From Candidatus Omnitrophota bacterium (GTDB lineage: Bacteria > Omnitrophota > Gorgyraeia > Zapsychrales > Zapsychraceae), in assembly GCA_020429915.1 (NCBI GenBank), contig JAGQKV010000005.1:75404-132942 (forward strand): 57,539 bases of DNA, given 5' to 3'. The position numbers were made by a program, and so were the translations under genes. This document shows positions 9,910 through 47,919 of this stretch, piece after piece; the first letter of the stretch is position 1, and each line of letters opens with the position of its first letter. The notes below the pieces were generated by a model. The model ran no database searches. It was given only the letters and a program-made list of their open reading frames with translations, and was not told the origin of the DNA.

Positions 9910-9910
<1 letters not shown>

Positions 9911-10128
9911 TACTTAAACTTCTCCATAACTATATTAAGTTTCTTAATCTTGGCTCTGAGGGTATTCCGGTTGAGACCGAGGACCCGGGCGGCGAGGATC
10001 TGATTGCCGTGTGTCTTTTGCAAGGCCTTCTCAATCAGCAGCCGTTCGGTATCACCAATAATCTTCTTGTAGATTTGGCCGTCCTTGTGCGTGACAAAAG
10101 ACTGTTCGATCCGATGTTCAAGGTCCAT
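9910..10128 (-). CDS. Fis-type DNA-binding protein upstream of gltB
   Basis: This is a 72-aa protein that is essentially one Fis/NtrC-type C-terminal DNA-binding domain. Residues 25-70 carry TERLLIEKALQKTHGNQILAAR and VLGLNRNTLRAKIKKL, the HTH_8 helix-turn-helix, with no receiver or AAA+ domain. It is too divergent in its N-terminal 25 residues to call true Fis. The stop and the gltB start overlap as TAATG. This tight link suggests that it regulates nitrogen genes in step with glutamate synthase and may autoregulate through the palindrome at 10171-10182. Start supported by CGAGGA before the ATG. Confidence 0.85.
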
Positions 10129-10476
10129 GGCTTTATCCTCGTTTACAGGATTGATGGTTGTGGATTCAGTACCTGCGCAGGTTCACTTACGAGAAAAGCA
10201 GAAATCTATTTCCCCCGGGTGTGGAACATTATTCTACAGACATTTCCCTGGATTGCAACTAAAAAATCCCCACCACCTGGACTACAAGTCATTCAAAACA
10301 TTGACTTTAGGACTTCTTGGGCGCAATTGCTACGGCTTTCACGGTTTAAAGGCCAACGGCGACACCAATTGCCTTATTTTTATGCATTCGGCCGCGCCGA
10401 ACGGGTCGCCCCGGCTTGATCCTGAAACAAAAGCGTCTGTTTTTATTGGTGATAGCGCACCCGCCGGGCGTATCGC
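10129..10476 (-). promoter_or_regulatory. fis-gltBD leader and promoter region
   Basis: No gene is visible in this 348-base gap. On the minus strand TTGCAA (10253-10258), 16 bases, then TAGAAT (10231-10236) preceded by TG makes a plausible sigma-70 promoter with a leader of about 95 bases. The leader contains the perfect 12-base palindrome ACCTGCGCAGGT at 10171-10182 and no terminator-like hairpin, unlike the other two nitrogen leaders. The upstream half holds a GC-rich hairpin after nadE (GATA/TATC arms near 10451-10474) without a T-run. Confidence 0.5.
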
Positions 10477-12156
10477 TCAGGATTCGCGGTAGCGGTTGGT
10501 AATGGGGAGGCGCCAGTCCTTGCCGAAGGCGCGCGGGGTGATCTTGATCCCCGGCGGGGACTGTCGGCGTTTGTATTCGCTGAGATCGACCTTCCGGATG
10601 ATCTCCTTGACGATCTCCGGCGGCAGGCGGCGGCTGATCTGAGCCTGGGACCGGTGCTCCTCGACGTAGGCCTGCAGGATCGCGTCCAGCTGGTCGTACG
10701 GGGGAAGCGAGTCTTGGTCGCGCTGGTTGTGGCGCAGCTCGGCGCTGGGCGCCCGGGTCAGAATGGTCTTCGGAATGGCCGGCCCCTCGATGGAATTGAT
10801 CAGCTCACAGAGCTGATAGACCTGGGTCTTGGACAGGTCCTTGATCACGGCGAACCCGCCCGACATGTCTCCGTAAAGCGTGCAATACCCCACGGCCACC
10901 TCGCTCTTGTTGCCGGTGGTCAGGACCAGCCAGCCGAATTTGTTGGACAGGGCCATGAGGATATTCCCCCGGATACGGGCCTGGATGTTTTCCTCGGCGA
11001 TATTTTCCGACAATCCGGCGAAATGCGGCTCCAACGTGCGGCGATAGGCGTCGACCGCATCCCCGATGGGGATCTCGCGGCATTCGATGCCGAGCCGTTT
11101 GGCAAGTTTGTGGGCGTCGGTGAGGGTACCCCGCGAGGTGAATCCTGACGGCATGGTGACCCCGACGACATTCTCCTTATTCAGAGCCTTGACGGCAACG
11201 GCCGCCACCAGCGCTGAATCGATCCCGCCGCTGAGGCCGATCAGGACCTTTTCAAAGCCGTTTTTGCGCACGTAATCACGGGTGCCGAGGACCAGGGCGC
11301 GGTACACGCTCTCCAGGGCGGTCAGGCGCGGCGGACGGACACGCGGAAGTTTTCCCCGGCCCTTGTTCTCCTCCCGGCTCATCTTGATAATATCGAACGA
11401 CTTGTACCGGCGTTCCCGGGCACGCGACAAGGAAATGTCGACAGTGATCAGGTCCTCTTCAAACCGGTGCGCCTCGGCCAGCACCTTGCCGGCGGGGTCC
11501 ACGATCATCGAACCGCCGTCAAAGACCAGCTCATCCTGGCCGCCGATCAGATTGACATAGGCCATAAAGGTGCCTGTCTCCTTGGCGCGCCGCTTCAACA
11601 GCTTGCCACGCTGATTATGTTTGCGGATGTCATAAGGCGAGCTGGACACGTTGATGATCAAACCGGCCCCCTGCAGGGCCTGTTTTTGATAGATGCCGTT
11701 GTCGACCCAGATGTCCTCGCAAATATTCACCGCGAACTCATCATAACCGAGCGCAAAGATATGACGCGACTTTCCGGAGGAAAAATATCTCTTCTCGTCA
11801 AACACGCCGTAGTTCGGCAACTCTTCCTTATAGTAGGTCCCGGCAATCCGCCCGCCGTTGATGACAGCCGCCGCGTTAAACAGCCGGCCACCGCGGTCCC
11901 GATCGACAAAGCCGATCACCGCTGTAATCCCGCTGACCTGTTTGGCCACGGACTTGATCGCCCGGATGTTGCGGGCGATGAAATGCGGCTTCAGCAGCAG
12001 GTCCTCGGGAGGATATCCACAGAGACTCATCTCGGGAAAGGCCACGATATCAGAGCCCCGGTCCATGGCCAGACGGATAAAATCGAGGATCTTGCGGCTG
12101 TTCCCCGAAAGGTCCCCGACCACGGGATTGATTTGGGCGAGCGACAGACGAAGCAT
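10477..12156 (-). CDS. nadE: NAD+ synthetase, glutamine-hydrolysing
   Basis: It converts deamido-NAD to NAD+ using glutamine as the ammonia source. The 559-aa protein has an N-terminal nitrilase-type amidase domain (about 1-260) with the Glu-Lys-Cys triad visible in FPEMSLCGYPPEDLL, YYKEELPNYG and NICEDIW. The C-terminal synthetase domain begins near 285 with the ATP-pyrophosphatase loop GLSGGIDSAL, then TTGNKSEVAVGY and GDMSGGFAVIKD. It follows the amidotransferase gene after 16 bases. Its glutamine dependence fits the surrounding glutamine genes. Confidence 0.97.
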   Translation of the reverse strand: MLRLSLAQINPVVGDLSGNSRKILDFIRLAMDRGSDIVAFPEMSLCGYPPEDLLLKPHFIARNIRAIKSVAKQVSGITAVIGFVDRDRGGRLFNAAAVINGGRIAGTYYKEELPNYGVFDEKRYFSSGKSRHIFALGYDEFAVNICEDIWVDNGIYQKQALQGAGLIINVSSSPYDIRKHNQRGKLLKRRAKETGTFMAYVNLIGGQDELVFDGGSMIVDPAGKVLAEAHRFEEDLITVDISLSRARERRYKSFDIIKMSREENKGRGKLPRVRPPRLTALESVYRALVLGTRDYVRKNGFEKVLIGLSGGIDSALVAAVAVKALNKENVVGVTMPSGFTSRGTLTDAHKLAKRLGIECREIPIGDAVDAYRRTLEPHFAGLSENIAEENIQARIRGNILMALSNKFGWLVLTTGNKSEVAVGYCTLYGDMSGGFAVIKDLSKTQVYQLCELINSIEGPAIPKTILTRAPSAELRHNQRDQDSLPPYDQLDAILQAYVEEHRSQAQISRRLPPEIVKEIIRKVDLSEYKRRQSPPGIKITPRAFGKDWRLPITNRYRES

Positions 12157-12996: not shown

Positions 12997-15126
12997 TTAT
13001 GAGATAAACAGCATTTCGGCGTATGACGGCAACGGCCAGTTTTCCGCCGGAACCAGACCTTCGAGTTCATCGACCGGGGCGCGCAGCGCTTTCATGGCCG
13101 ACAATTGCTTGACCGTCGCTCCCGCCGAAACCTTTTCGAGGGCGTCCGCCGCGGCGAGGGCGTCTTCGGTCAGGGTTGTGACGCGTTTAAGCAGGTCACG
13201 GGTTGCCGTTGACTTGGTCTTGTTAATGCCTTCCACGTTCTTGATCGTCTCGGCAAGACCGTCGGCGTAATCCAACGCGGCCGGGATCAACAACGTGCGG
13301 GCCATATCGACCATCAGGTCAGCTTCATATTTCAGGATCGTCTCGTAAGTTTCCTGGTAAATCTCATTACGAGATTCGAACTCTTTCTTGGTCAGAACGC
13401 CCATCTTCTCGAACGCCTTTTCGATCTTCGGCGTCCTGATAGCCTTCAGGGCTTCCGGAGTCGTCTTCAGGTTCGGGAGGCCGCGCTTTTTGGCTTCCTT
13501 GACCCATTCGGCGGTATAGTTATCGCCGTTGAAGATGACCTTCTTATGCTTCTTGAGGATGTCCTGCAGGACCTTCTGGACGGCCTTATTGAGATTCTTC
13601 TTGCCGGCCTTTTCCAGTTCGTCGTTGATATCAGACAGGACCGTGGCCACCGCGGTATTGATGGCGATGTTGGGGCCTGAGAGGCTTTGTCCGGATCCGA
13701 CGGCGCGGAACTCAAACTTGGCTCCGGTAAAGGCAAACGGTGACGTGCGGTTGCGGTCGGACGCATGGCGCGGCAGCGTCGGTAAAGAGTCGACACCGAC
13801 TTCCAGTGTTCCGCCTTCCTTGGTAGCCTTGGCTTTTCCGCTCTTTTCGATTTGCTCGATGATATCGTTGAGCTGCTCACCTAGGTAGATCGAAATGATC
13901 GCCGGCGGCGCTTCGTGAGAACCGAGGCGGTGGTCGTTTCCGGCTGATCCGATCGCGGCACGCAACAATTCGGCGTACTCGTCGACGGCCTTGATAACGG
14001 CGCACAGCATAATCAGGAAGCGTTCGTTTTCATGCGGATTGCTTCCCGGCGACAGCCAGTTCTTTCCGTCGGGGCCGGTAACGGACCAGTTGTTGTGCTT
14101 TCCGGAACCGTTGACGCCCAAAAACGGCTTTTCGTGCAGCAGGCAGACCAATCCGTGCTTCAGGGCCACCTTTTGCATGACTTCCATGGTGAGCATGTTA
14201 TGGTCAACGGCCAGATTCTGGTTTTCGAAAATCGGAGCCAGTTCATACTGTCCCGGGGCGACTTCGTTGTGACGGGTCGTGACCGGAGCGCCGAGCTTCC
14301 ACAGTTCGCGGTCGATGTCTTCCATGAACGCGATCACGCGGTCTTTGATGGCGCCGAAATAATGGTCGGCCATCTGCTGGTGCTTGGCCGGCTCCTTGCC
14401 GAACAACGTACGGCCGGTTTGAACCAGGTCGATACGCTGGTAATAGAATTCGCGGTCGATCAGAAAATATTCCTGCTCGCCCCCCAGCGTCGCGTAAGAC
14501 GGCTGCTGGGCCTTGATGCCGAGGATCTTGGCCAGGCGGTCAATTTCTTTGGACAGCGCTTTCATGGATCGCAGCAGCGGCGTCTTCTTGTCCAAGGCTT
14601 CCCCGTGCCAGCCGACGAAATATGTCGGGATGCAGAGCGTGGCGCCTTGCGGGCCTTCCTTAATAAAGGCGGGTGACGTCGGATCCCAACCGGTGTAACC
14701 GCGGGCCTCGAATGTCGGTCTCAGGCCGCCTGAGGGAAAACTGGACGCGTCCGGTTCGCCCTGGATCAGTTCGTCGCCGGAGAATTCCAGAATACAGCTG
14801 CCTTCACCGTCCGGTTCGATGAATGAATCGTGTTTTTCCGCTGTTCCGCCGGTCAACGGCTGGAACCAGTGAGTAAAGTGGGTCGCGCCTTTGGACACGG
14901 CCCAAGTCTTCATTGCCTCCGCGATCTCGTCGGCGTAGTTCGGATCGAGCTTTCCGCCGCTCTTGATCGTCGCGCTAAGCGATTTGAAGGCTTTATCGGA
15001 GAGGTAGTTCTTCATCGTCTTAACGCTGAAAACCTTCTCGCCGTAGTAGTCCGGTATCGTCTGAAAACCGCTGAATTCTGCCATGGTTTCTCCTTCTAGT
15101 CCTTTGAATCTTGACGTGGTACTCAT
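12997..15126 (-). CDS. glnN: Glutamine synthetase type III
   Basis: It condenses glutamate and ammonia with ATP to form glutamine. At 709 aa it has the length of type III (GlnN) enzymes. Signature stretches: THFTHWFQPLTGGTAEKHDSF near 80-100, GGEQEYFLID near 212, VTTRHNEVAPGQYELAPIFE near 280, LLHEKPFLGVNGSGKHNNWS near 332, and NRTSPFAFTGAKFEFRAVGS near 455. Two in-frame starts each have a good Shine-Dalgarno: ATG at 15126 (TAGGAG) and ATG at 15084 (AAGGAG, six bases). I annotate the longer. Expression is gated by the leader terminator at 15232-15276, which overlaps an ANTAR-type hairpin. Confidence 0.97.
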   Translation of the reverse strand: MSTTSRFKGLEGETMAEFSGFQTIPDYYGEKVFSVKTMKNYLSDKAFKSLSATIKSGGKLDPNYADEIAEAMKTWAVSKGATHFTHWFQPLTGGTAEKHDSFIEPDGEGSCILEFSGDELIQGEPDASSFPSGGLRPTFEARGYTGWDPTSPAFIKEGPQGATLCIPTYFVGWHGEALDKKTPLLRSMKALSKEIDRLAKILGIKAQQPSYATLGGEQEYFLIDREFYYQRIDLVQTGRTLFGKEPAKHQQMADHYFGAIKDRVIAFMEDIDRELWKLGAPVTTRHNEVAPGQYELAPIFENQNLAVDHNMLTMEVMQKVALKHGLVCLLHEKPFLGVNGSGKHNNWSVTGPDGKNWLSPGSNPHENERFLIMLCAVIKAVDEYAELLRAAIGSAGNDHRLGSHEAPPAIISIYLGEQLNDIIEQIEKSGKAKATKEGGTLEVGVDSLPTLPRHASDRNRTSPFAFTGAKFEFRAVGSGQSLSGPNIAINTAVATVLSDINDELEKAGKKNLNKAVQKVLQDILKKHKKVIFNGDNYTAEWVKEAKKRGLPNLKTTPEALKAIRTPKIEKAFEKMGVLTKKEFESRNEIYQETYETILKYEADLMVDMARTLLIPAALDYADGLAETIKNVEGINKTKSTATRDLLKRVTTLTEDALAAADALEKVSAGATVKQLSAMKALRAPVDELEGLVPAENWPLPSYAEMLFIS

Positions 15127-15276: not shown

Positions 15277-15344
15277 CTTCAATGCCCTGGGATTTGAAAA
15301 TTGCTGCTGGAATTGCTGGGAATCACTGAGGACGCCTTTGCCCT
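15273..15344 (-). promoter_or_regulatory. ANTAR-type two-hairpin antitermination site, glnN leader
   Basis: Hairpin P1 (15329-15344) and hairpin P2 (15273-15288) have the same five-pair stem AGGGC/GUCCU, each containing one G-U pair. Their six-base loops are AAAGGC and AUUGAA, with A at loop position 1 and G at position 4, the conserved positions of ANTAR-protein targets. P2 shares its 3' arm with the 5' arm of the terminator (15273-15276), so stabilising P2 would prevent termination. The linker is 40 bases. P1 also competes with the hairpin at 15340-15360. Confidence 0.7.
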
Positions 15345-15531: not shown

Positions 15532-15873
15532 TTAACCGATCGCCACGGTGCTTTCTTCTTCCGTACGGATACGGATGCAGCGCGGCAGGTCAAGGACGAA
15601 GATCTTTCCGTCCCCGATACGTCCGGTCTTGGCGCCCTTGATGATCGCCTTGATCGTGATGTCTTCGTACTCATCATTGACCGCGATCTCCAAACGGACT
15701 TTCTTTACCAAGTTGATTTCATGAACAACCCCGCGGTACGTTTCACTGTAACCGCCTTGCTGACCGCAACCAACCACGTTGGTTACAGTCATTTTTCTGA
15801 CTCCGGCATCGAACAGCGCCTGTTTCGTAGCAGGCAGTTGATGCGGTTTGATCATCGCAATAATCAATTTCAT
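15532..15873 (-). CDS. glnB: Nitrogen regulatory protein P-II
   Basis: PII proteins sense 2-oxoglutarate and ATP/ADP, and in Gram-negatives glutamine through uridylylation. They control AmtB, glutamine synthetase and regulators. The 113-aa product starts [13 protein letters not shown] and has a T-loop [20 protein letters not shown] whose Tyr in ETYRG is the usual modification site. It also has [10 protein letters not shown], then [14 protein letters not shown] for nucleotide binding. The position right after amtB suggests the GlnK role of plugging the channel. Strong Shine-Dalgarno CGGAGGAA. The leader contains a 12-bp long-range inverted repeat (15904-15980). Confidence 0.95.
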
Positions 15874-16024: not shown

Positions 16025-17380
16025 TTACGTCGTGGTGAAAATTTGGAACCCATCATAGGCTTCCATGGCATGTTCGCCGATGTCCAGCCCCATGTATTCT
16101 TCTTTTTCACTGACCCGCACACCCAGTGTGGCCTTGATGATCCCGAAGATGACTGCCGCGGAGACCAATGAAGCGGCCCCGTAAGCGAGAACACCCACGA
16201 ATTGAACCCACAGAGAGTGATCAGGGCTGAAGATACCGACAGCCAGCGTACCCCAGATACCGCACACCAAGTGAACGGAAACGGCACCGACCGGATCATC
16301 AATCTTCAGCACAGAGTCAACAAAGAGTACGGACGCCACAACCAAAACCCCGGCGACCACCCCGATGATGATTGCGGACACTACGGAAACCGAATCGGCA
16401 CCCGCAGTGATCCCGACCAAACCGGCCAATGATCCGTTCAGGACCATGGAAAGGTCCGGCTTCTTCAGCATAATTTCTGACATGATCATGGCGCCGACGA
16501 TACCGGCCGCAGCGGCCAAACACGTCGTAACCAGAGTGAACGATGTCGCAGCCGGATCAGCTGACAACACGGAACCCCCGTTGAATCCGAACCATCCCAA
16601 CCAGAGCAGGAATACCCCGATGGTGGCCAGCGGCATGCTGTGGCCCGGAATCGCCTTTACGGTTCCCTTAACATACTTACCCAAACGCGGGCCTAACATC
16701 CAAGCACAAACCAAAGCAGCCCATCCACCGACAGAGTGAACGAGAGTCGATCCGGCGAAGTCATAGAATCCCATTCCGTCTAACCAGCCGCCACCCCACT
16801 TCCAGCTACCAACAAGGGGATAGACAAGACCGACATAGAATACGGAAAAGAGTAAAAAGCTGTGCAGTTTAACCCGTTCGGCAACGGCTCCGGAAACGAT
16901 TGTCGCGGCAGTTGCAGCGAACATCCCCTGAAAGAGGAAGTCCGTCCAGTAGGTGTATCCGCCATCAGCGTATTCGATCAAACCAGCGGCGCCTTCCGGA
17001 GAAGAGATACCGAACCCGGCAAATCCGAAGAATGTTCCCATAATCCAGGAGTCGCCCGGATACATGAGGTTAAACCCGAGCAACGCGTACGTTAACAACC
17101 CGATCGCCACAATCATGACGTTCTTGAACAGGATGTTCACGGTGTTTTTCGATCGCGTTAGCCCCGATTCCAGTGTTGCGAAACCTAAATGCATGATGAA
17201 CACGAGGAAAGTCGAGACCATCATCCAGATGTTGTTTGCCGTAAACAGCGCGTTGTTGGCTGCTTCGAGACCTTCGGCTGCCGTGGGTTCGGCTCCGGCC
17301 ATCCCGACCAGTCCGGTCGCTGTCACGGCCAAAACGGCGAGTGTCACCGTCTTGGTTAATTTTTTGAAAAGTTTGAACAT
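16025..17380 (-). CDS. amtB: Ammonium transporter
   Basis: AmtB is a trimeric inner-membrane ammonium channel. The 451-aa protein has a cleavable N-terminal signal (ending VGMAGA) and eleven predicted helices, as usual for AmtB. The twin pore histidines are in STLVHSVGGWAAL and SVHLVCGIWG, and the binding vestibule stretch LESGLTRSKN is present. GGAGG lies nine bases before the ATG. Upstream are a TorF-type porin and a five-codon leader frame; downstream is glnB, which would regulate it. Confidence 0.97.
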   Translation of the reverse strand: MFKLFKKLTKTVTLAVLAVTATGLVGMAGAEPTAAEGLEAANNALFTANNIWMMVSTFLVFIMHLGFATLESGLTRSKNTVNILFKNVMIVAIGLLTYALLGFNLMYPGDSWIMGTFFGFAGFGISSPEGAAGLIEYADGGYTYWTDFLFQGMFAATAATIVSGAVAERVKLHSFLLFSVFYVGLVYPLVGSWKWGGGWLDGMGFYDFAGSTLVHSVGGWAALVCAWMLGPRLGKYVKGTVKAIPGHSMPLATIGVFLLWLGWFGFNGGSVLSADPAATSFTLVTTCLAAAAGIVGAMIMSEIMLKKPDLSMVLNGSLAGLVGITAGADSVSVVSAIIIGVVAGVLVVASVLFVDSVLKIDDPVGAVSVHLVCGIWGTLAVGIFSPDHSLWVQFVGVLAYGAASLVSAAVIFGIIKATLGVRVSEKEEYMGLDIGEHAMEAYDGFQIFTTT

Positions 17381-17544: not shown

Positions 17545-18354
17545 TTAGTTGGCAAAAGACATGGCCACGCCGCCCCAGAATTCGTCATCCTGGTTCCCGT
17601 CGTTGGCATCTTCCAGATCCCCGAACGGTACGGTGACAGCCACCATGGGCGAAACACTGACGGTATCCGTCAGCGGGATCGTCAGACCGAGGGTGGTGGT
17701 CGACCATCCGCCGTCTCCCATAATAAAGGCCTCATCATTGAACCCGAGCTCTTCGCCGATATCGAGCGAGATCCCGGTTTCTTCGTCCAGTGTGAAGCTG
17801 TGGCCGATGCTGAAGACGAAGTAATTCCCGTCCGCACCACCGCTGGCTTCATCGCTGTAATCGTGATACCACGTGAACGAGGGGGACAAGAAAGTGTCCA
17901 CGGAGATGCCCAGATAAAGTTCCTCCGCGTGGGACCCTTCAGCCAATCCCGTGTCCCCGTCCGGAAAGTTGTACCAAGTGTTACCGAACGACACGCCGAC
18001 GATCTCCAGGCTTTCGTCGATGATCCCCAGATCAAAGGCGATCCCGAACCAGCCGTCGACTTCCGCGGCGTCCAGGGTGTCATTGCTTTGCATGTCAAAA
18101 TTTCCCCAAAAACCCCCTTCGAACGGTCCGACCGAAAGATTGATGGCCGGTTGGATAGACTTGTCGCCGTCCAGTCTGAACCCGCGCCAGATGTACTTGT
18201 CGTAGATTCCGACATCTGCGGACACTTCCACCGGAAATTCCTCTGAAGAGAAGTACTCATCGAGGACCCCCGCGGCCGATGCCGTGCGGACTTGGGCCAG
18301 AATGGCCAGAGCGAAAAGAGTTGTTACGAACATTTGGGTTGTCTTTCTCATCAT
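17545..18354 (-). CDS. TorF-type putative outer-membrane porin
   Basis: The 269-aa protein has a signal peptide (cleavage near ASAAG, residue 28) and then alternating amphipathic beta strands. It has the TorF/TIGR02001 opening VSADVGIYDKYIWRGFRLDGDKS cut into VGIYDKYIWRGF, SIQPAINLSVGP and GFWGNFDMQS, and an aromatic-type C-terminus (WGGVAMSFAN). TorF-like porins are often found beside glnK-amtB in proteobacteria, where a role in ammonium or amine entry is suspected. Strong Shine-Dalgarno ACGGAGGAA; a second ATG follows directly. First gene of the porin-amtB-glnB operon, behind three leader terminators. Confidence 0.85.
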   Translation of the reverse strand: MMRKTTQMFVTTLFALAILAQVRTASAAGVLDEYFSSEEFPVEVSADVGIYDKYIWRGFRLDGDKSIQPAINLSVGPFEGGFWGNFDMQSNDTLDAAEVDGWFGIAFDLGIIDESLEIVGVSFGNTWYNFPDGDTGLAEGSHAEELYLGISVDTFLSPSFTWYHDYSDEASGGADGNYFVFSIGHSFTLDEETGISLDIGEELGFNDEAFIMGDGGWSTTTLGLTIPLTDTVSVSPMVAVTVPFGDLEDANDGNQDDEFWGGVAMSFAN

Positions 18355-18415: not shown

Positions 18416-18468
18416 AAAAAAGGCCTTCCCCCCAGCGCCCCTGCGCTGACGAAAAGACCTCATCGTCC
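18416..18468 (-). terminator. Leader terminator T3 with overlapping hexaloop hairpin
   Basis: GGTCTT (18454-18459) pairs with AAGGCC (18422-18427) around a CAGCGC/GCGCTG helix, with six T residues following (18416-18421). A competing hairpin GGAC-GAUGAG-GUC (18456-18468) overlaps its 5' arm; the loop has G at position 4 but G rather than A at position 1. Confidence 0.65.
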
Positions 18469-18520
18469 TCAACCCTACCCGGGTTTTCAGCCCCTCACCT
18501 ATCCCTGCAAGAGACTGAAC

Positions 18521-18567
18521 AAAAAATCCCCAGTGGAGACCGTGTCTCGCTGGGGACGTCATTGTCC
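18521..18567 (-). terminator. Leader terminator T2 with overlapping hexaloop hairpin
   Basis: CCCCAG/CTGGGG (18550-18555 with 18528-18533) with an inner GAGAC/GTCTC helix and six T residues (18521-18526). A competing hairpin GGAC-AAUGAC-GUCC (18554-18567), loop A1 and G4, overlaps the outer base pairs. Confidence 0.75.
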
Positions 18568-18569
18568 AC

Positions 18570-18600
18570 AAAAAATCCGGCACCGCCTAAGTGGTGTCGG
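18570..18600 (-). terminator. Leader terminator T1
   Basis: CCGACACC/GGTGCCGG with one mismatch (18593-18600 with 18577-18584) and six T residues (18570-18575), about 45 to 75 bases after the predicted transcription start. Confidence 0.8.
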
Positions 18601-18637
18601 ACATCAGTGTCGGTATCTTGGCGAACCGTCAATGGCC
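18598..18637 (-). promoter_or_regulatory. ANTAR-type two-hairpin antitermination site, porin-amtB-glnB leader
   Basis: P1 GGCC-AUUGAC-GGUU (18624-18637) and P2 GAC-ACUGAU-GUC (18600-18611, extendable with one mismatch to 18598-18613) are separated by about 10 to 12 bases. Both six-base loops have A1 and G4. The 3' arm of extended P2 overlaps the 5' arm of T1 (18598-18600). P1 relies on two G-U pairs and P2 is short, so the structure is weaker than the glnN site. Confidence 0.6.
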
Positions 18638-18651
18638 CGTAAGATGTCAGG

Positions 18652-18680
18652 AGTATATCCAATTCCGGTTACAATGTCAA
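18652..18680 (-). promoter_or_regulatory. Porin-amtB-glnB promoter
   Basis: TTGACA (18675-18680), 17 bases, TATACT (18652-18657): near-consensus sigma-70. It leaves a leader of about 290 bases to the porin start, filled with three terminators and their competing hairpins. No coding sequence is visible in the 18355-18752 gap. Confidence 0.9.
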
Positions 18681-18752: not shown

Positions 18753-21700
18753 CTAGTCCACGATGATAATCGCACCGCGCAACGGCCCCGTCCGGAACCA
18801 ATTCACGGTATTTCCGGCATCCACGGAGTTCGGCGGATTGATGATGGCCCCGTCCACATTCACGGAATCGCGTACATTCAGGTAGTTATTCGCCCGTGTC
18901 CCGCTGGGATCGATAGTCCACGGGTTGCCGGTATTGGTCGAACGCAGGAACAAACGGTTGGCGGCGTCAAACCCGCGCAGACGCATTTCCCCGGTTATCG
19001 CCATGGTGGTCCCTTCTTCCACATAGAGAGTGCCGGTCGCGGCCGTAGTCAGAGTCATATTGAAATTATAGAACGTCTCTGAAGACAGCAATGATTGTTC
19101 TTGGCCGTCAAAGATGACCGTTCCGGTCTGTTCGTCGAATGTTCCGCCGCTGTTGATCCAGTTGCCCGATATGGTGATATCATTGTCGCTGCCGACGTCC
19201 AATTCACCCGCGATGATATTCAGGGTTCCGTCGATGTCGATGGCATCCTGCAGAATCACCTCATTATTAGGCGCGGTCCCGGTATTGTTTATCTCCACGT
19301 TATAGAACGTAACGGTTCCGCTGGTAATGTCCTGATCGGCCCCTCCGTTGAAGGCCACCGTTCCGCTGGTGGTGACCAGAGTTCCCCCGGTCGAATCCCA
19401 ATCGCCGGCCACGTCCAGCGTCCCGCTCAAAGACAGCGTGCCGTCCAGGTCCATACCGGTCGTCCTCGCCCCTTCACCCGATCCGATAATAAGTGTATTC
19501 CCGCTCAAAATCCGCAACGTTTCGTCGGAATAACTGGCCCCGCCGTCGACGATCAACAGGGTTCCGGCATTAACCAGATACATAATATCTTCGTCATCGG
19601 CATTGTCAAAATGATTGGCCTCGGTCAGGCTGTAGCTCAGGTTGTCGTTGCTGCCCACGGTAAACACATGCCGGTTCAATACGACACCGGAGACGGTGCC
19701 GGAACCGTCGAAGCGGAAAAGGGCCGAGGATTCATCGGCCGTCGCAATATCTCCGTCGGCGTCCTCGGCCCAGACCGTGGCAATCTGTCCGGAGAGGATG
19801 GGAACATTGTCCAGGGTCCATACTCCGGAGGTAATCGTCCCGGTGACGTCCATACACAGTGTTCCGTTGACCGCCAGCTTCACGTTGGTGTTGTCGGCCA
19901 GATCCGATATCCCGGAGATATCCACGGCCGCCGCAACATAGGTAATCACGATCCGCCCGGTGTTGCCGTCGGTCCCGGAGGTTGTGGTTGCCCCGCCGCT
20001 ACCGCCCATCCCCGCACTGCCGGCGTAGGCGCTGTCGGTATTGTTCCCCGCATTCCGGCCCGAACCGTCGGTCGTACTTGTGGAGGTTCCGGATACCAGT
20101 GAGGATCCGCCGCCACCACCACCACCGCCGGCGTCTCCTGCTGTGGAGTTTCCGCCGCCACCGCCGCCGTAGTATCCGGCCCCGCCGCCGCCACCGCCCG
20201 AACATCCGGCCTGCACATTCCCTTCCCCACCGTCTCCGCCGTTGGTTACCCCGCCGGCCGGCCCCTGACCCAGCTCCCCGCCGCCGCAACTGGTGGGGGA
20301 CGCCGCCTGCGACCCGCGTGAGCCCTGCCCGCCGTAAGTGAGCCCGCCGGATTCCCCGGTTGAGCCGCCGCTCCCGCCGGATCCGCCCATGGCCTGCGTC
20401 CCGCCGGTCCCCCCGGTACTCAGGCTGGAGGTGCCGCCGGATCCGCCGGTCGCGCCCCCGCCGACCCCACCGGTCCCGCCCGCGGTTGACGAGGAATTGT
20501 CGCCCCCGCCGCCGCCCCCGCCGCCGGCCGCGACGACAAGATGCGTGGTCCCGCGCAGGATGGCGGACCGCCCGCCCCCGCTGCCCCCGTCTCCGGAGTT
20601 GCGACCGCCCGCGCCGACACCGCCGGTTCCGCCGCCGCCGACATGCACCGTTAATATTTCCCCGGGCGTGACACTGAGCGTCCCCCGGGCGAAAGCCGCG
20701 CCCCCGCCATCCCCACCGACACCGGAGGTCCCGCCGCCGCCGCCGGCACCGCCGCCACCCCACGCCTTGACGGTAATGGCCGTCACCCCTTTCGGAACCA
20801 TAAACGTGGTGGTGCCTTCGATGGTAAAGACATCGGCTCCTGCGCCAACAAAGATCCAGTGCGGTGACGCCGCCGCGTCGTCGTTGCCGCCGTCATTAAC
20901 GGAATTATCAGCCTCGATATCACTGGTCGCCGCATTGGAATTGGCGACTTTGACGAAGCTGACGTTCTGGCCGGTGGACACATCCAGGGTGAATTGCGTG
21001 CTGCCGTCAACGGAATCGAGCTCAATTTCCTGATTGAGACCGCCTTCCAGTTGCAGCGTTCCGGTCACCGTAAACGTGGTCGATTGCTGAAAGGACAGCT
21101 TCGCCCCCAAGGTCGTGGCGACCAGTTCGGCCGTCGTAAAGGCCTCGCTGAAGGTAACCCGCTGGTCGGAGGTATTCGTGACCTTGATGCTATTGTAGGT
21201 TTGTGAGTCGCTGGCGATGATTTGGGCGCCCGTCCCGTCGAAAGTGACCCGGGAGGAGGCCACCGTGAACGTATCCAGGTTCGCCCAGTCCAAATCGGCG
21301 CTGACAAACAAGGTATCATTGCTGATATCCAGCGTCGTCGCCCCGCCGTTGTTGACCGTGATCGCGCCGTCGACATACATATTGTCCGCCGTGGATACCT
21401 CCGCCCCTGCCGTTACCGAACCGATGCGAACGATATTAAACGCCTTGCCGTTACTCGTTATCTGTACTGTGCCGTCGAAAATGACCGTGGATGAGGTGTT
21501 GGTAAAGACACCGGCGGTCATATCCCAATTCCCGGCGACATTCAGTACGGCATTGCCGTCGGTGCCGCTGCCCGCGTCCAGCGTGCCGTTGATGGTGATC
21601 GCGCCGTTAATGTCGATATCATATCCGTCAAGGATGAATCGGTTTCCGGCGACCACGGTGAGTTGGGATGCCAGAAAATCGGACGCCAATGTGATGTCGT

Positions 21701-24488
21701 GGCCCAGTGTCCCCGTATAGACATGCCCGAAATCCGTACTGCTCGTATCGGTGTAAATTAAATCTCCGTCGAGGGTGAGCGATCCGGTGCCGGCGATAAC
21801 GTTGCCGCCGGTGACGGTGACATTGTCGGAGATATACATGTCGGTGTTGTTAACGCTGAAATCGATGGTCCCGGCCGCCATGCTGAACAAACCGTCGACG
21901 TCGATCACGGCGTTCGGAGTGATCGTTCCGGCGTAACCGGTATTAATCTGCAGACCGCCGATATTGAACGTTGCATCTACCACAGCGCTATTGTCACAAC
22001 TGTTGGTGAAGACGGCATTCTCATCCCCTGTCGGTACACCGGCTCCGCCGCCGACGCCGCACGCGTTTTCCGAGTTCGCCCAGTTTGCGGCATCAGAGGT
22101 ATTTCCGCCTGCCGGACCGACCCAGTAACGGTCGGGCACAAATATCCACTGCGGCGAGGCCGCCGCCTCATCATTACCGCCGCCGTTGACCGAGGACACA
22201 GCCAAAATGTCGTTCCCGGGGGAACCGGTCACCTCCGAATCCTCGACGTTGACAAAGGCGACGGTCATCGGCTTATCGACGCGAATATTCCAATCCGTCC
22301 CCGGCATACTCGAGACCAGCCCCAGCAATTGACTCAATGCCCCGCTTAAATTCAGCGACTCTTGTACGCGCACGGTCTCTCCGGCCTCAAAAGTAAGTGT
22401 CCCGGCCACCGTAACACTCTTCGCCAAGATATAGAATGTTTCCGTCCCCATGATCGACTGGTCCGCGCCATCCAGCGTCACGGTGGAAGAACGGGCGGTG
22501 AAGGTCCCGCCGTTATTGATCCAGTTCCCCGCCAGATGAATGGCGTTGTTCTCTCCCGACTTGGTATCGAGTGTCCCCGCGGCCAGTTCCAATGTTCCAT
22601 TAACGTCGAGCACGTCTTCCAGAACGAATGTGCCGGAGGCATTGTCGAACTGCACATGCATGTATTGAATGCCGTCAGAGGTAATGGGAACCGATGTCGA
22701 CGCGGCAAACCGGACGGTCCCGGTGGTGGTCAGGTCCCCGCCCGTGGCGTCGAACGTTCCGTTGACCGTCAGGAGATTGGCCGCCATGACCATAGTCCCG
22801 TTGATATCCAGGGCGCCCGTCGTCACCGCCCCGCCCGGAGCGAAGGTACCCGTCGCGTCAACATACAGCTCAATGGTCCCGGCGGTGGTCAGCGCGCCGC
22901 CAGAGATGCTGTAGAAGGACGTGATATCCGGGTCCCCGCTGTTGTCCGCCGTGGCCAAATCGGTGATGGTGAGATTACCGTTGTTGTCGTGACGCACAAT
23001 CAACCGGTCCTCGATGAGATCCATCCCGGTGATCGTCAATGTCCCGGTCTTGGTCACAGTCACGGCGCGCGCGGTTTCATCATCGATGTAGGCGGTGATA
23101 ATATCATCGGTGGTAAAGGTCCCGGTCCAGGCGAACTCCCCGCCCTGTCCGGTGAGCAGGGTCTCCTGGTACGCGCCGTTCTTGGCGATGGATACCGTCA
23201 CGTCCGCACCGATATTGGTCGTGCCTTCGTCGATGTATACGGTCCCGGTGATCGCCTGCGGCGCTTCGATGGCGAAGTAACCGATAATGTAGGCGCTGCT
23301 GTTATTGGATGTCCAGCGGATATCGGGCGAACTATCACTGAACGGCTGCATCACCCCTTCGGCGACAAAAGCGGCATCGATTTGCGAAAGTCCGAGGATC
23401 TTGCCGCTGTTGCTGCGCTGGTCGGCGTTGGCGGCACCGGCCTCATCGGTACGGGTTACCGAGCTTTGCGTGACCCCGTCGTAGGCGCCGAAGGTCATGC
23501 GCATATTGTTATTAGTGTTGGGCACTTCATCTACTTCTGTCCCGGACCCCATAAAGATCAGCTGCGGCCGGAAACCGAGGTTACCGATGGACTGATTCAC
23601 CGGTGCGGTATCCGTGGATTTGGTAAATGTCCCGACGGCCGTCTGCAGACCGCCGACGTCCAGCGCCAGCCAGTAAAAATTGTCGCCGTTACTCCCCGTC
23701 CAGCTGAAACCGTTGGCTTGAATAGCCGAAATGCTCGATGACCAGTTCAATCCCGTTTCCCAGTATTGACCGCTAAAGGCCGAGGTGAAGGTTAAGCTGT
23801 CGCGATTGGTTACCGCATTCTGGTCATGAAATCCGCCGACAAACCATTCATCCAGATTGTCGTTAAACACACCGAAGGATGTCAGCGTACTGGTATCGGT
23901 ACCCGAGCCGGCCCCCAACCCCGCCGTGGTCACAAAAACCAGCTCCGGCTGGAACGCCACTCCGGTCTCAGGAGAGGCATTGGCCGCCTGCTGTCCCACA
24001 TCGGCCTGCAGATCGGCCCCGCCGAAGGCGATGTAGTGCACGATATATCCGGATGCGGCCGTGGAATAGTTCAATGTGAACCCGTCGGCGTCGAAGGAGG
24101 CGATTGTCGCCTGATTGACCGGGGTATCGCTGGGACCGTTGATCATCTGGATTACGCTGGACTCATTGCGGTAGCGGATCGTGTCGGCCGCCCCGTTGTC
24201 ACTGACCGCCCCGACCACCCGTTGGTCTGTCCCGTCGGTAAAACCGATCCATTGGGCCGAATGCACGGCCACCGCTTCGCTGGTGACCGGCACGCCGTAA
24301 AGGATCAATGCCTTAGGACGGAACCCGACACCGGTCACGCTGTCATTACCGGTCGCGCCGGGCGTTGAGAATGTGCCGGTCGCGGTCACGACGTCGACCT
24401 GCGCGAAGGCAGGCACACTCCCGGCGACGGCCATAACGAACATGGCCATCACAAACAGCGCGAGTTGTCGAAAAAGTTTATGTATCAT
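18753..24488 (-). CDS. Giant secreted beta-rich protein with Gly-rich domain
   Basis: The product is 1911 aa. A signal peptide ends near residue 27 (VPAFA). Residues 30-430 hold two copies of a domain marked by GVGFRPKALILYG and LGFRPQLIFMG. From about 440 come repeated Ser/Thr/Gly beta units with the recurring phrases 'AGNWxNxGGTFT', 'TVxFDGxxQ', 'TFYN' and 'GGNDxAAASPxWIFV'. Residues about 1236-1515 are a glycine-rich domain (GGGGG runs, then GRIVITYV), like the Gly-rich module of ALK/LTK and phage tail proteins. No LPXTG, PEP-CTERM or autotransporter barrel is visible; it ends GPLRGAIIIVD. Likely a cell-surface or matrix protein. The ATG lies inside the end of the HTH gene (11-base overlap), so the two are coupled; I rejected an upstream start at 24686, which would lack a signal peptide. 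Confidence 0.85.
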   Translation of the reverse strand: MIHKLFRQLALFVMAMFVMAVAGSVPAFAQVDVVTATGTFSTPGATGNDSVTGVGFRPKALILYGVPVTSEAVAVHSAQWIGFTDGTDQRVVGAVSDNGAADTIRYRNESSVIQMINGPSDTPVNQATIASFDADGFTLNYSTAASGYIVHYIAFGGADLQADVGQQAANASPETGVAFQPELVFVTTAGLGAGSGTDTSTLTSFGVFNDNLDEWFVGGFHDQNAVTNRDSLTFTSAFSGQYWETGLNWSSSISAIQANGFSWTGSNGDNFYWLALDVGGLQTAVGTFTKSTDTAPVNQSIGNLGFRPQLIFMGSGTEVDEVPNTNNNMRMTFGAYDGVTQSSVTRTDEAGAANADQRSNSGKILGLSQIDAAFVAEGVMQPFSDSSPDIRWTSNNSSAYIIGYFAIEAPQAITGTVYIDEGTTNIGADVTVSIAKNGAYQETLLTGQGGEFAWTGTFTTDDIITAYIDDETARAVTVTKTGTLTITGMDLIEDRLIVRHDNNGNLTITDLATADNSGDPDITSFYSISGGALTTAGTIELYVDATGTFAPGGAVTTGALDINGTMVMAANLLTVNGTFDATGGDLTTTGTVRFAASTSVPITSDGIQYMHVQFDNASGTFVLEDVLDVNGTLELAAGTLDTKSGENNAIHLAGNWINNGGTFTARSSTVTLDGADQSIMGTETFYILAKSVTVAGTLTFEAGETVRVQESLNLSGALSQLLGLVSSMPGTDWNIRVDKPMTVAFVNVEDSEVTGSPGNDILAVSSVNGGGNDEAAASPQWIFVPDRYWVGPAGGNTSDAANWANSENACGVGGGAGVPTGDENAVFTNSCDNSAVVDATFNIGGLQINTGYAGTITPNAVIDVDGLFSMAAGTIDFSVNNTDMYISDNVTVTGGNVIAGTGSLTLDGDLIYTDTSSTDFGHVYTGTLGHDITLASDFLASQLTVVAGNRFILDGYDIDINGAITINGTLDAGSGTDGNAVLNVAGNWDMTAGVFTNTSSTVIFDGTVQITSNGKAFNIVRIGSVTAGAEVSTADNMYVDGAITVNNGGATTLDISNDTLFVSADLDWANLDTFTVASSRVTFDGTGAQIIASDSQTYNSIKVTNTSDQRVTFSEAFTTAELVATTLGAKLSFQQSTTFTVTGTLQLEGGLNQEIELDSVDGSTQFTLDVSTGQNVSFVKVANSNAATSDIEADNSVNDGGNDDAAASPHWIFVGAGADVFTIEGTTTFMVPKGVTAITVKAWGGGGAGGGGGTSGVGGDGGGAAFARGTLSVTPGEILTVHVGGGGTGGVGAGGRNSGDGGSGGGRSAILRGTTHLVVAAGGGGGGGGDNSSSTAGGTGGVGGGATGGSGGTSSLSTGGTGGTQAMGGSGGSGGSTGESGGLTYGGQGSRGSQAASPTSCGGGELGQGPAGGVTNGGDGGEGNVQAGCSGGGGGGAGYYGGGGGGNSTAGDAGGGGGGGGSSLVSGTSTSTTDGSGRNAGNNTDSAYAGSAGMGGSGGATTTSGTDGNTGRIVITYVAAAVDISGISDLADNTNVKLAVNGTLCMDVTGTITSGVWTLDNVPILSGQIATVWAEDADGDIATADESSALFRFDGSGTVSGVVLNRHVFTVGSNDNLSYSLTEANHFDNADDEDIMYLVNAGTLLIVDGGASYSDETLRILSGNTLIIGSGEGARTTGMDLDGTLSLSGTLDVAGDWDSTGGTLVTTSGTVAFNGGADQDITSGTVTFYNVEINNTGTAPNNEVILQDAIDIDGTLNIIAGELDVGSDNDITISGNWINSGGTFDEQTGTVIFDGQEQSLLSSETFYNFNMTLTTAATGTLYVEEGTTMAITGEMRLRGFDAANRLFLRSTNTGNPWTIDPSGTRANNYLNVRDSVNVDGAIINPPNSVDAGNTVNWFRTGPLRGAIIIVD

Positions 24489-25179
24489 TTTCAGCGTAAA
24501 CGGCGCTGGCCGGGATCGCGTAACTGCGTCCCATACGATGCGCCGGTAATTGTCCTTTTTTGACCTTCTTGAAGACCGCGACCCGGCTGATGCCCAGCCG
24601 TTGCGCGGCCTCGGCCACCGAGAGATAGTCATCGGCCCGGTTTGCGGCCGGAGACACAAAAAGGCCCGCCAGGGGGACGTCCTCACGCGCGATGACGTAA
24701 TGACGTCCCACCTTGCGGGCCTTGATGCGGCCTTGATTGATGTGATTCAAGACCGTCTTGCGGTTGCTGCCGATGATCTCGGCATATTCCATAACCGACA
24801 CGTAATCGTGCAGCAGTGCCGGATGGTCCGGCTGCTGTGGCGCCGCGGCCGGTAAATCTTTTTTAGCGATCACATAACGCCGGCCTATGCGCCGGGCACG
24901 GATAAGGCCGTTGCGGACACGGTTGTAAACCGTCATCCGTGTCACACCCAGCAATTGCGCGGCCTCGTTAAGCGACAGCTCCTCTTCGCCCAGTCCGCGC
25001 GGTCCGGCATAATCCGGCAGCACCTCCGCCAGGTCCTTGCGGTCGATCGCGTATCCGCGGCCGATCTTACGCGCCTTCAGACGTCCGGATTTGATCCGTT
25101 TGAAGACGGCGACCGTACTGATACTGAGCAGTTCGGCGACTTGGGCTGTGGATAGATATCGGAGGTCTTGAGCGGGCAT
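24478..25179 (-). CDS. Four-fold excisionase-type HTH DNA-binding protein
   Basis: The 233-aa protein is four tandem HTH_17/excisionase-like domains and almost nothing else: residues about 8-54, 68-111, 126-170 and 185-227. Each has the pattern 'hydrophobic-S-x-x-x-A-A-x-x-L-G-h-S/T-R-x-T/A-V-x-x-x-h-x-x-G-x-h-x-A-R-x-h-G-R-x-Y-x-I-x-x-x-D'. Families with this domain usually have one copy. Four copies suggest recognition of a long or repeated operator. Three copies of ATTG(T/C)TAACC in its own promoter region (25184-25252) are the obvious candidates. The stop codon overlaps the start of the giant secreted protein, which is therefore its probable target and partner. Confidence 0.85.
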   Translation of the reverse strand: MPAQDLRYLSTAQVAELLSISTVAVFKRIKSGRLKARKIGRGYAIDRKDLAEVLPDYAGPRGLGEEELSLNEAAQLLGVTRMTVYNRVRNGLIRARRIGRRYVIAKKDLPAAAPQQPDHPALLHDYVSVMEYAEIIGSNRKTVLNHINQGRIKARKVGRHYVIAREDVPLAGLFVSPAANRADDYLSVAEAAQRLGISRVAVFKKVKKGQLPAHRMGRSYAIPASAVYAENDT

Positions 25180-25322: not shown

Positions 25323-26555
25323 CTAGGCGCTGAATTCTTCCATCAGGATGATGGATTCGGCGATGTCCTTCATGGTCTTGCAGGAATCCATCGCCTTTTT
25401 GTGAATGAGCCGGTGGGCGGCTTCTTCGGAGAGATTGTTCATGCGCATCAGGATGCCTTTGGCCCGTTCAACCAGTTTGCGGGTTTCCAGGGCTTCCTTG
25501 GCGCGGACCATTTCATCGACCAGCTTGGTATTCTCAACAGCGACCGCGGCTTGATTCGCGATAATCTGCAACACAGCGACCTCCTCATCGGAGAAAGAGT
25601 GCGGCTCTTTGGTGTATACCGAAATGACGCCGATGGCCTGATCCTTGACGACCATCGGGACAATACAGACAGACGACAAATTTTCCTTCAAGGCCAGATC
25701 CCGGTGCTGAAATTTACTATTAGCCTGCACGTCTTCCGCCACGATGGGAGTTTTCTTTTGAACGGCCTCCCCGCTCAAACTGCTGTTGATCCGGACACTC
25801 GGCCGTTTGCGGAAACTGTCGGTCAGGGCGTGGGTTGCCTTGACACTTAATTCCTTCCCTTTGTTGTCCACGAGCATGATCGAACAAATCTTGGAGTTCA
25901 ACATTTCTCCCGTCACCACGACAATCAAATTAAGGATTTCATCGAGATAGTCCTGTGAAATGATGGATTGGCTGACCTTGTTCAGGCTGTCGAACTGGAT
26001 GGCCTTCTTGCGCGTCTCTTCATACAGCCGGGCGTGTTCGAGCGTCCCGCTGATCTGCTTGGCAATCAGCATAATCAAGTCGATGGTTGCCTCATCATAT
26101 TCGTGCGGATCTTTGTGCTGAACGTTGACAACGCCGATCGCATTGTTCTTATGCACGATCGGCACCGAGAGAAACGCCTCATACTGATCTTCCGGAAGCA
26201 CATCGAATTTCTTAAACCGTTTGTCTTGGGAGGCGTCTTTGCTGATGGCGACCGGCTGATTTTCCTTGGCGACCCATCCCGTGATCCCTTCTCCCGCCTT
26301 GAGGGTGACCTGCCCCAATTCTTTTTTATGCGGTGTTTTGGAGGCCATCAGAACAAGGTGTTTGCGCTTGTCGTTGAACAGATAGATAAACACGGAGTCC
26401 GCCTTGGTCATGTCATTGACGACCTTCACGACCTCTTTGAGCGCTTTATCGAGATTAAGATCGGAGTTGGTGATCTCCACGATAGTGCGCAGGATCTCCA
26501 GTTCTTCGACGGGACTTACCTTAAGTTTTCGGCTGGTCTTTTTCTTGGTGGGCAT
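25323..26555 (-). CDS. GAF-GAF-ANTAR antiterminator protein
   Basis: The 410-aa soluble regulator has a GAF domain at about 20-180 (VKVVNDMTKADSVFIYLF; GEGITGWVAKENQPVAI; VPIVHKNNAIGVVNVQHKDP) and a second at about 195-350 (LNLIVVVTGEMLNSKICSIM; VPMVVKDQAIGVISVYTKEP). The C-terminal ANTAR domain is at about 352-408 (RKLVERAKGILMRMNNLSEEAAHRLI). ANTAR domains bind paired hexaloop hairpins in leader RNA and prevent termination. GAF domains would sense a small ligand that cannot be named from sequence. Paired hexaloop hairpins over terminators occur in the glnN and porin-amtB-glnB leaders nearby, its likely targets. No good Shine-Dalgarno precedes the ATG. Confidence 0.92.
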   Translation of the reverse strand: MPTKKKTSRKLKVSPVEELEILRTIVEITNSDLNLDKALKEVVKVVNDMTKADSVFIYLFNDKRKHLVLMASKTPHKKELGQVTLKAGEGITGWVAKENQPVAISKDASQDKRFKKFDVLPEDQYEAFLSVPIVHKNNAIGVVNVQHKDPHEYDEATIDLIMLIAKQISGTLEHARLYEETRKKAIQFDSLNKVSQSIISQDYLDEILNLIVVVTGEMLNSKICSIMLVDNKGKELSVKATHALTDSFRKRPSVRINSSLSGEAVQKKTPIVAEDVQANSKFQHRDLALKENLSSVCIVPMVVKDQAIGVISVYTKEPHSFSDEEVAVLQIIANQAAVAVENTKLVDEMVRAKEALETRKLVERAKGILMRMNNLSEEAAHRLIHKKAMDSCKTMKDIAESIILMEEFSA

Positions 26556-47757: not shown

Positions 47758-47919
47758 TGACAATCCCCGCTTATGCCGTCGAAAGATTTTAATGGTGACC
47801 CAAATCACCAGGTGGGTACCCTCCCCAGAAGGCCCACGGGCCAGCTGAACTCAGGCATCCCGATTGAATAGTTAGGTTACTTTATATATCTTCCTAACGA
47901 ACACAGCAGGGATTATCAA
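47758..47919 (-). ncRNA. ssrS: Probable 6S RNA
   Basis: 6S RNA mimics an open promoter and sequesters housekeeping RNA polymerase. The minus-strand transcript closes with AATCCCTGC (from 47914) pairing GCGGGGATT (to 47762). In between it has the 6S-like conserved block GAGGGTACCCACCTGG, then hairpin GGTGA-TTTGGG-TCACC, and a 3' CGACGGCATAAGCGGGG. A TATAAT (47926-47931) lies seven bases before the 5' end, and a terminator follows near 47660. The neighbour 5-formyl-THF cyclo-ligase is the classic partner. Identified by eye; ends are approximate. Confidence 0.75.

Follow-up and report, generated by a model that had tools for sequence, protein, structure and literature searches.

A nitrogen-scavenging operon in an Omnitrophota genome preceded by three serial, probably ANTAR-controlled attenuators

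Why should a single leader carry three intrinsic terminators, one after another, between a promoter and genes for ammonium uptake? This question is raised by the region upstream of a porin-amt-glnB operon in a Candidatus Omnitrophota genome, which we analysed within a stretch of 57,539 nucleotides (hereafter the window; contig JAGQKV010000005.1). An initial annotation of this DNA had described a near-consensus promoter followed by three terminators, each overlapped by a small hexaloop hairpin, and had assigned the arrangement to ANTAR-based regulation. In known ANTAR attenuators, two successive hairpins, P1 and then P2, of at least three base pairs each and separated by a short linker, are capped by six-nucleotide loops whose first base is A and whose fourth is G (A1/G4); P2 and an intrinsic terminator are mutually exclusive, and an ANTAR protein is encoded in the genome (PMC3369931). 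Our analysis indicates that the leader very probably works as a series of ANTAR-controlled attenuators ahead of a nitrogen-scavenging operon, with a further gate of this kind before the glutamine synthetase gene.

The leader and the genes around it

All features of the leader lie on the minus strand of the window. The sigma-70-type promoter (TTGACA-17-TATACT, 18652-18680) matches the consensus at 11 of 12 positions, and transcription would be expected to start near 18645. A first hairpin, with the stem CGGGCC/GGUUCG and the hexaloop AUUGAC (P1, 18622-18639, -6.3 kcal/mol), is followed by three terminators in a row, as the initial annotation had claimed. Gate 1 consists of the P2 hairpin GAC-ACUGAU-GUC (18600-18611), the proposed antitermination hairpin, and of terminator 1 (18570-18602, U-tract 18575-18570, -12.1 kcal/mol); its P2 loop lies 25 nt from the loop of P1. 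Gate 2 combines the P2 hairpin GGAC-AAUGAC-GUCC (18554-18567) with terminator 2 (18521-18557, U-tract 18526-18521, -18.8 kcal/mol), and gate 3 combines AGGAC-GAUGAG-GUCUU (18454-18469) with terminator 3 (18416-18461, U-tract 18421-18416, -28.6 kcal/mol). A covariance model for such gates matches them at 18569-18613, 18520-18568 and 18416-18469 with 27.8, 36.1 and 30.0 bits, respectively. At all three gates the 3′ arm of P2 is also the 5′ arm of the terminator, which is then followed by six U residues, so that the two structures exclude each other. The loops of P1 and of the P2 hairpins of gates 1 and 2 conform to the A1/G4 rule, and gate 3, with G at loop position 1, strictly misses that position.

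When the stem G[GA]C-N6-G[TC][CT] running into a terminator was searched for with the loop left free, the leader yielded exactly these three gates; among 5000 shuffled leaders, 4847 contained none, 153 contained one and none contained two or more. The claim that the 5′ arm of each terminator overlaps a small hexaloop hairpin was confirmed. Over the whole window and both strands the same search returned 20 sites, and purine-1/G4 loops beyond the leader were restricted to the glutamine synthetase gate described below and to sites at 30683 and 38611, both inside long open frames. The leader fold beats 200 of 200 dinucleotide shuffles (z -5.4). With -2.3 to -5.2 kcal/mol the P2 hairpins are small, and forcing P2 at one gate costs 6.0-7.0 kcal/mol of the whole-leader fold, the cost being 7.0 at gate 2. 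Terminators were defined by folding, since a simple consensus terminator scan, whose rules are stricter, caught terminator 2 only in part. At gathering score, Rfam matched only tRNA and 6S RNA in the window and nothing in the leader, where a relaxed threshold gave four matches, each far below its gathering score; the 6S RNA (RF00013, 54.7 bits, above gathering score) is located at 47760-47915 on the minus strand.

The genes behind the leader, likewise on the minus strand, encode a porin-like outer-membrane protein of the Gcw_chp family (269 aa, 17545-18354; PF09694, E 7e-6), an ammonium transporter (451 aa, 16025-17380; PF00909, 1e-116) and the PII nitrogen regulatory protein GlnB (113 aa, 15532-15873; PF00543, 6.8e-25). 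A further gate of the same kind lies between glnB and the gene for a type III glutamine synthetase (709 aa, 12997-15126; PF12437, 5e-76). It comprises the P2 hairpin AGGGC-AUUGAA-GUCCU and a terminator with U-tract (15288-15233, 44.1 bits), and by eye has its own promoter-like stretch upstream, containing TTGACA. A P2-like hairpin without its own U-tract, AGGGC-AAAGGC-GUCCU, is found on the same strand at 15328-15344, 56 nt loop-to-loop before the glutamine synthetase gate, and several relatives have hairpins at a similar distance ahead of theirs.

A weak gate-model match at 10318-10260, upstream of gltB (13.2 bits), was rejected: no P2 stem was seen and its fold resembles that of shuffles (z -0.6). 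It is possibly a decayed gate. The minus-strand stretch 9910-10480, from the NAD synthase gene to gltB, holds by eye a small open frame with a Fis-like HTH. On the other side of the gated promoter, the minus-strand frame 18753-24686 encodes a repetitive, partly glycine-rich and, by eye, probably surface-located protein of 1977 residues, and ends about 70 nt before the promoter. Its start is overlapped by the frame of a 233-residue protein with four HTH_17 (excisionase-type) repeats (24478-25179, minus strand).

Gates and ANTAR proteins across the phylum

To what extent is this loop and terminator architecture kept in relatives? For a count free of loop bias, loci were fetched by the Amt protein, the ANTAR family and the ANTAR protein, and gates were searched for with the loop unspecified. 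This gave 119 Omnitrophota matches, of which 40 in long open frames were set aside; the latter include coding noise together with some real gates, and 24 of the 40 have G at position 4. The remaining 79 show that the loops are conserved in relatives that have the terminators, position 4 being G in 77 and position 1 being A in 61 and G in 17, with two matches breaking the purine-1/G4 pattern. The initial annotation had described the loops as containing UGA at positions 3-5. As a rule this did not hold: what relatives conserve is the purine at position 1 and the G at position 4, while U and A are about equally frequent at position 3 and A is merely the commonest base at position 5. Across 61 aligned gates the terminator stem covaries, with 93.4% of cells paired and 90 both-side changes against 24.2 in shuffles. 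The P2 stem is near-invariant (one pair with both-side changes, some bases being fixed or limited by the search pattern) and, with conservation in place of covariation, the case for its pairing is one of sequence. CsrA was set aside as the RNA binder, the third base being G in at least 39 of the 61 aligned P2 stems, and hence no GGA.

The gate covariance model had matches in 76 of 82 genomes of the order (E<=0.05) and, at E<=0.001 with stricter filters, in 110 of 385 genomes of the phylum. It had none in nine acidobacterial genomes (E<=0.05), an empty result that alone shows nothing; all nine have a gene for a relative of the ANTAR protein, with about 700 bases at 40-42% identity in eight and a partial match at a contig end in one. 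We fetched 100 regions around matches listed for gate model R1. The model was trained on purine-1/G4 gates, so loop counts at loci found with it are biased, and the statistics independent of it are the 79-gate count above and the protein-found apical count given below. The window and these regions contained 210 loop-free gates, of which, with this bias towards the loop, 196 were purine-1/G4 gates in noncoding sequence, noncoding meaning only outside matches to six reference proteins. The next recognised gene within 900 nt was amt for 71 of the 196, the type III glutamine synthetase gene for 41, the porin gene for 26 and an ANTAR gene for four; for 54 it was none of the six references. Eight further downstream proteins were scanned and seven had a Pfam match: a glutamine synthetase of another type, NifH, the carbamoyl-phosphate synthase small chain, a Pyr_redox_2 protein read as nitrite-reductase-like, a BBP2 porin, a PAS-LuxR regulator, and a protein like the glutamate synthase small subunit, encoded by the second open frame after its gate. 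The eighth, from the window's own genome, had no Pfam match. The PAS-LuxR regulator gene lies just 3′ of gates or a gate-model match at three loci of three genera, including the window's genome (L083, by Pfam match; L136 and L162, by eye).

Gate number could be compared over 134 leaders, counting non-overlapping gates at -11 kcal/mol or better (190 of the 196). Ninety-one leaders have one gate, 30 have two and 13 have three. A multi-gate leader that is conserved among relatives is supported. The three-gate leaders belong to 13 genomes of nine genera and stand ahead of amt (six), the porin gene (six) and the glutamine synthetase gene (one). Among 20 regions from outside the order, three gates occur before porin-amt in one genome (G151) and before amt in another (G244); in a third from outside the order (G294), three gates lie 0.9 kb before amt. 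Near a contig end, a fourth of these genomes, G306, has four near-identical gates at 62-63 nt spacing (L183, G306:C228), with the apex loop AUUGAA in three and GUUGAA in one; the gene downstream lies beyond the piece read. Closest to the window, a second genome of the same genus (G002) keeps the promoter hexamers TTGACA and TATACT, a P1 counterpart (CUUAAGGCC-AAUGGC-GGUCUUAAG, at -27) and all three gates, and its last gate shares the flanking letters AGGAC...GAGGUC with gate 3 of the window. Multi-gate leaders thus recur in the order and occur elsewhere in the phylum, and are therefore not a one-locus curiosity.

The proposed antiterminator is encoded in the window itself, at 25323-26555 on the minus strand, as a GAF-GAF-ANTAR protein of 410 aa (ANTAR E 1.7e-20) that is the single ANTAR match in its genome. 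Its closest named relatives are six records at 62-79% identity, four titled Candidatus Omnitrophota and the other two Zapsychrus and Aceula, which we take to be members of the same phylum. ANTAR matches were found in 47 of 56 relatives and in 285 of 385 phylum genomes; the domain is present in 102 of 110 gate-positive and 183 of 275 gate-negative phylum genomes (Fisher 1.7e-8, with the overlap tallied by eye and kinship left in, related genomes not being independent). It was absent from the matches of eight gate-positive genomes, one of which (G004) has an ANTAR-protein fragment at a contig end. In the 95%-complete assembly of G002, which has gates, no ANTAR match was found, and the full ANTAR protein gave only weak GAF-type matches there. 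Gates preceded on their own strand by an ANTAR gene, with less than 600 nt between the end of that gene and the gate, occur in 28 genomes. The assignment of the gates to ANTAR has held up on several counts, namely the hexaloop rule, the terminator overlap, the ANTAR protein of the window, the 28 relatives with an ANTAR gene upstream and the nitrogen genes downstream, and the ANTAR reading is well supported.

Aligned with EutV, the RNA-contacting residues R142, K143, K149, E160, Y164 and M172 correspond to R, K, K, E, H and M in the window protein, and further changes include Lys147 to Arg, Arg168 to His, Asn173 to Asp and Arg175 to Cys. Among 49 distinct ANTAR domains, 34 have Tyr, 14 His and one Phe at position 164, and all 49 have K and E at the positions of K143 and E160; only pattern-fitting domains entered this count, R142 and M172 being fixed and K149 limited to K or R by the pattern. 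In the EutV-RNA structure, Tyr164 stacks on G4 and A1 has no specific contact (PMC8934654), with which the relaxed loop position 1 of the Omnitrophota gates is in accord.

Upstream P1 and a hexaloop at the terminator apex

The initial annotation had assigned the hairpin with the AUUGAC loop as P1. This stands for gate 1, which has the published dual-hairpin geometry (P1 at -25), and does not extend to gates 2 and 3, which no P1 serves in the known geometry: the P2 of the preceding gate lies 45 and 99 nt upstream, respectively. For the eut system the optimal linker is 5-12 nt and linkers of 3 or 14 nt impair induction (PMC3369931), and adding 20 nt between the hairpins impairs antitermination (PMC8934654). 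A search for a P1 of its own upstream of gate 2 returned only P1 (-70) and the P2 of gate 1 (-45), and no A1/G4 hexaloop hairpin was present within 75 nt of gate 3. By the definitions used here, neither gate has an upstream P1 or a purine-1/G4 apical hexaloop. Terminator 2 was not scored as carrying an apical hexaloop, and opening one pair at the apex of terminator 3 gives a hexaloop CAGGGG, with G at position 4 but C at position 1.

Among the 196 gates, 44 have an upstream P1-like hairpin (a stem of at least five pairs, loop-to-loop 18-36 nt), compared with 1.4% in shuffles. A hexaloop can also occur at the apex of the terminator. Of 276 gate terminators, only 65 fold at minimum energy with six bases in the apical loop, which is purine-1/G4 in 42 of the 65, versus 20 of 140 in other terminators from the same loci (Fisher 1.1e-12), a control that may include gates missed by the stem pattern. 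In the protein-found set alone, 16 of 23 apical hexaloops are purine-1/G4 (Fisher 1.2e-7 versus the same control). Examples are GACC-AUAGAA-GGUU and AAGACC-AAUGAC-GGUUUU. Under a looser definition, in which a weak closing pair may open, 70 of the 196 gates have an apical hexaloop; it lies 17-24 nt after the P2 loop (19-22 nt in 58 of 70) and is closed by a C-G pair in 57 of 70, closing pairs having been counted in gates only.

The first gates of the 134 leaders have only an upstream P1 in 24 cases, only an apical hexaloop in 46, both in one and neither in 63 (Fisher 1.3e-4). Because 63 lack either form, the gates may work without a second hairpin, or they may have one in forms that were not scored. 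In two leaders (G010 and G051) P2 begins, by eye, about 15 nt after the promoter -10 element and therefore an upstream P1 has no room; their apex loops read AGUGAU and AAUGAU when one A-U pair is opened. The apex hairpin of the previous gate is the upstream P1 of nine later gates. Over 24 consecutive gate pairs, the distance from the nested loop to the next P2 is 32-36 nt in 10, longer in 12 and zero in two, where overlapping gates were counted, and the idea that the apex always recruits for the next gate was thus only partly borne out.

The enrichment of the apical loop suggests, as a possible if somewhat doubtful reading, that in many gates the ANTAR target is folded into the terminator, the apex hexaloop replacing the upstream P1. 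A P2-apex distance of about 20 nt would, with four pairs per hairpin, leave by arithmetic a linker of about 6 nt, within the eut range. If ANTAR were to bind P2 and the apex together, it would open the base of the terminator, with the top staying in place. Such a target could make a gate workable from the first nucleotides of the transcript, and in gate arrays the apex of one terminator might also recruit for the gate that follows, the protein being passed along the leader.

A probable serial attenuator, its alternatives and known systems

How might the leader of the window work? Without the protein, each nascent terminator would form and RNA polymerase would stop at one or other of the three; since the terminators are far more stable than the P2 hairpins, we take the leader to be closed by default. 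In its RNA-binding state, the GAF-GAF-ANTAR protein would hold the small hexaloop hairpin P2, which sits at the base of each terminator; with the 3′ arm of P2 then unavailable, the terminator could not close. For this antitermination step we draw on the observed overlap of P2 and terminator and on the EutV and NasR systems. P1 would recruit the protein to the transcript before gate 1, and gates 2 and 3 would perhaps be served by protein recruited at P1 or at the P2 of gate 1. Alternatively, a single hexaloop might suffice at these gates as the minimal site, as proposed in a 2022 structure paper (PMC8934654). Three gates in series would multiply their leaks, so that expression would stay low when nitrogen is plentiful and climb more sharply when it runs short, and one ANTAR protein would act on every gate of the nitrogen regulon.

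The best solved-structure matches of the first GAF domain are two phosphoenolpyruvate-protein phosphotransferases, here called PtsP. Of the known GAF domains, those of PtsP-type and NifA-type proteins are nearest to it, which makes glutamine/2-oxoglutarate the likeliest signal, and the gates would open under nitrogen shortage. The GAF domain of NifA binds 2-oxoglutarate (PMC8219145), and that of EINtr senses Gln/alpha-KG (PMC5024086).

Other explanations of the leader differ greatly in probability. The terminators might be the ordinary ends of the upstream gene on the same strand (18753-24686), with coincidental hexaloops, and the terminator scan indeed lists none between the stop of that gene and the promoter about 70 nt further on; however, a near-consensus promoter intervenes, two gates never arose in the 5000 shuffled leaders and the arrangement recurs before nitrogen genes across the order, which leaves this account next to no probability. 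Hardly more credible is an RNA-only switch (a riboswitch, a T-box or another) in place of protein control. T-boxes do have serial terminators in one leader, but the leader of the window belongs to no Rfam family at the gathering threshold, its relaxed matches fall far short of the gathering scores, its P2 hairpins are small and gates are linked to ANTAR.

Two further accounts accept ANTAR control in whole or in part. We give a little less than an even chance to the view that the gates are ANTAR gates whose serial copies are redundant, tandem duplication merely completing termination with no special dose response. The spread of gate numbers over the 134 leaders is what this would lead one to expect, and the evenly spaced, near-identical gates of G306 resemble recent tandem copies; against it, the three terminators of the window differ widely in sequence and strength (-12, -19 and -29 kcal/mol), and three-gate leaders recur across nine genera. 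It is unlikely that only gate 1, with its canonical P1, responds to ANTAR, terminators 2 and 3 being partial, constitutive terminators or degenerate gates. Although the lack of an upstream P1 or purine-1/G4 apical hexaloop at gates 2 and 3 and the sensitivity of eut to linkers of 3 or 14 nt, or to 20 added nt, speak for such a limitation, the operon would be silenced by a terminator as strong as the third (-28.6 kcal/mol) if it stayed closed permanently. Moreover, the P2 hairpins of gates 2 and 3 fit the consensus, G002 likewise has three gates with the last flanked by AGGAC...GAGGUC, and a single hexaloop has been redefined as the minimal site (PMC8934654).

Under the serial ANTAR attenuator that we prefer, members of an uncultured phylum would control much of their nitrogen regulon downstream of transcription initiation, through one RNA-binding protein that opens many gates, often arranged serially; serial gates are a simple means of sharpening a switch. 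The leaders also offer natural variants, with P1 upstream, with a P1-like hairpin at the apex or with neither, and with one to four gates. These bear on whether ANTAR needs both hexaloops, in which order, and whether one dimer touches both.

Serial terminators in one leader have a precedent in the thrZ leader of Bacillus subtilis, which carries triple serial T-box terminators. Like the leader of the window, such tandem T-box leaders have serial terminators with their own antiterminators; they answer uncharged tRNA, whereas the gates of the window are proposed to be protein-controlled. Together with the ANTAR sites discussed in the next paragraph, thrZ makes the statement of the initial annotation that no three-gate example was described too strong. 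In the open-access literature a paper on the triple T-box terminators of thrZ was not found. The term "tandem ANTAR" had 0 occurrences among the matches listed, and "Omnitrophota" appeared with "ANTAR domain" in none among the matches listed. Combining ANTAR, ammonium transporter and terminator returned none, with whole-word matching so weak that it missed PMC3369931, which has "ammonium transporters".

The ANTAR attenuator family is already known, and Ramesh et al. (2012; PMC3369931) reported predicted sites ahead of genes for ammonium transporters, PII and glutamine synthase. The EutV/eut system of Enterococcus faecalis, NasR/nasF of Klebsiella oxytoca and AmiR/amiE of Pseudomonas share with the window A1/G4 hexaloops and the overlap of P2 with a terminator, and the known attenuators also share nitrogen-related genes, an ANTAR protein in the genome and, with gate 1, the order of P1 and P2. 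Unlike the known dual-hairpin attenuators, the window has three gates per leader, with gates 2 and 3 lacking a canonical P1; Omnitrophota gates tolerate G at loop position 1, and many relatives have a second hexaloop in the terminator apex. The proteins differ too, that of the window being GAF-GAF-ANTAR, whereas EutV has a phospho-receiver domain and NasR is nitrate-sensing. In Desulfotomaculum acetoxidans, 13 predicted ANTAR attenuators are spread over six transcription units (PMC3369931), likewise several per unit on average and at nitrogen genes; the running text of that paper does not state placement within one leader and does not mention an apical hexaloop. The eut operon of E. faecalis, finally, has several ANTAR gates in one cluster, as does the window, but its sites precede different genes (eutP, eutG, eutS and eutA), whereas the gates of the window are serial in one leader.
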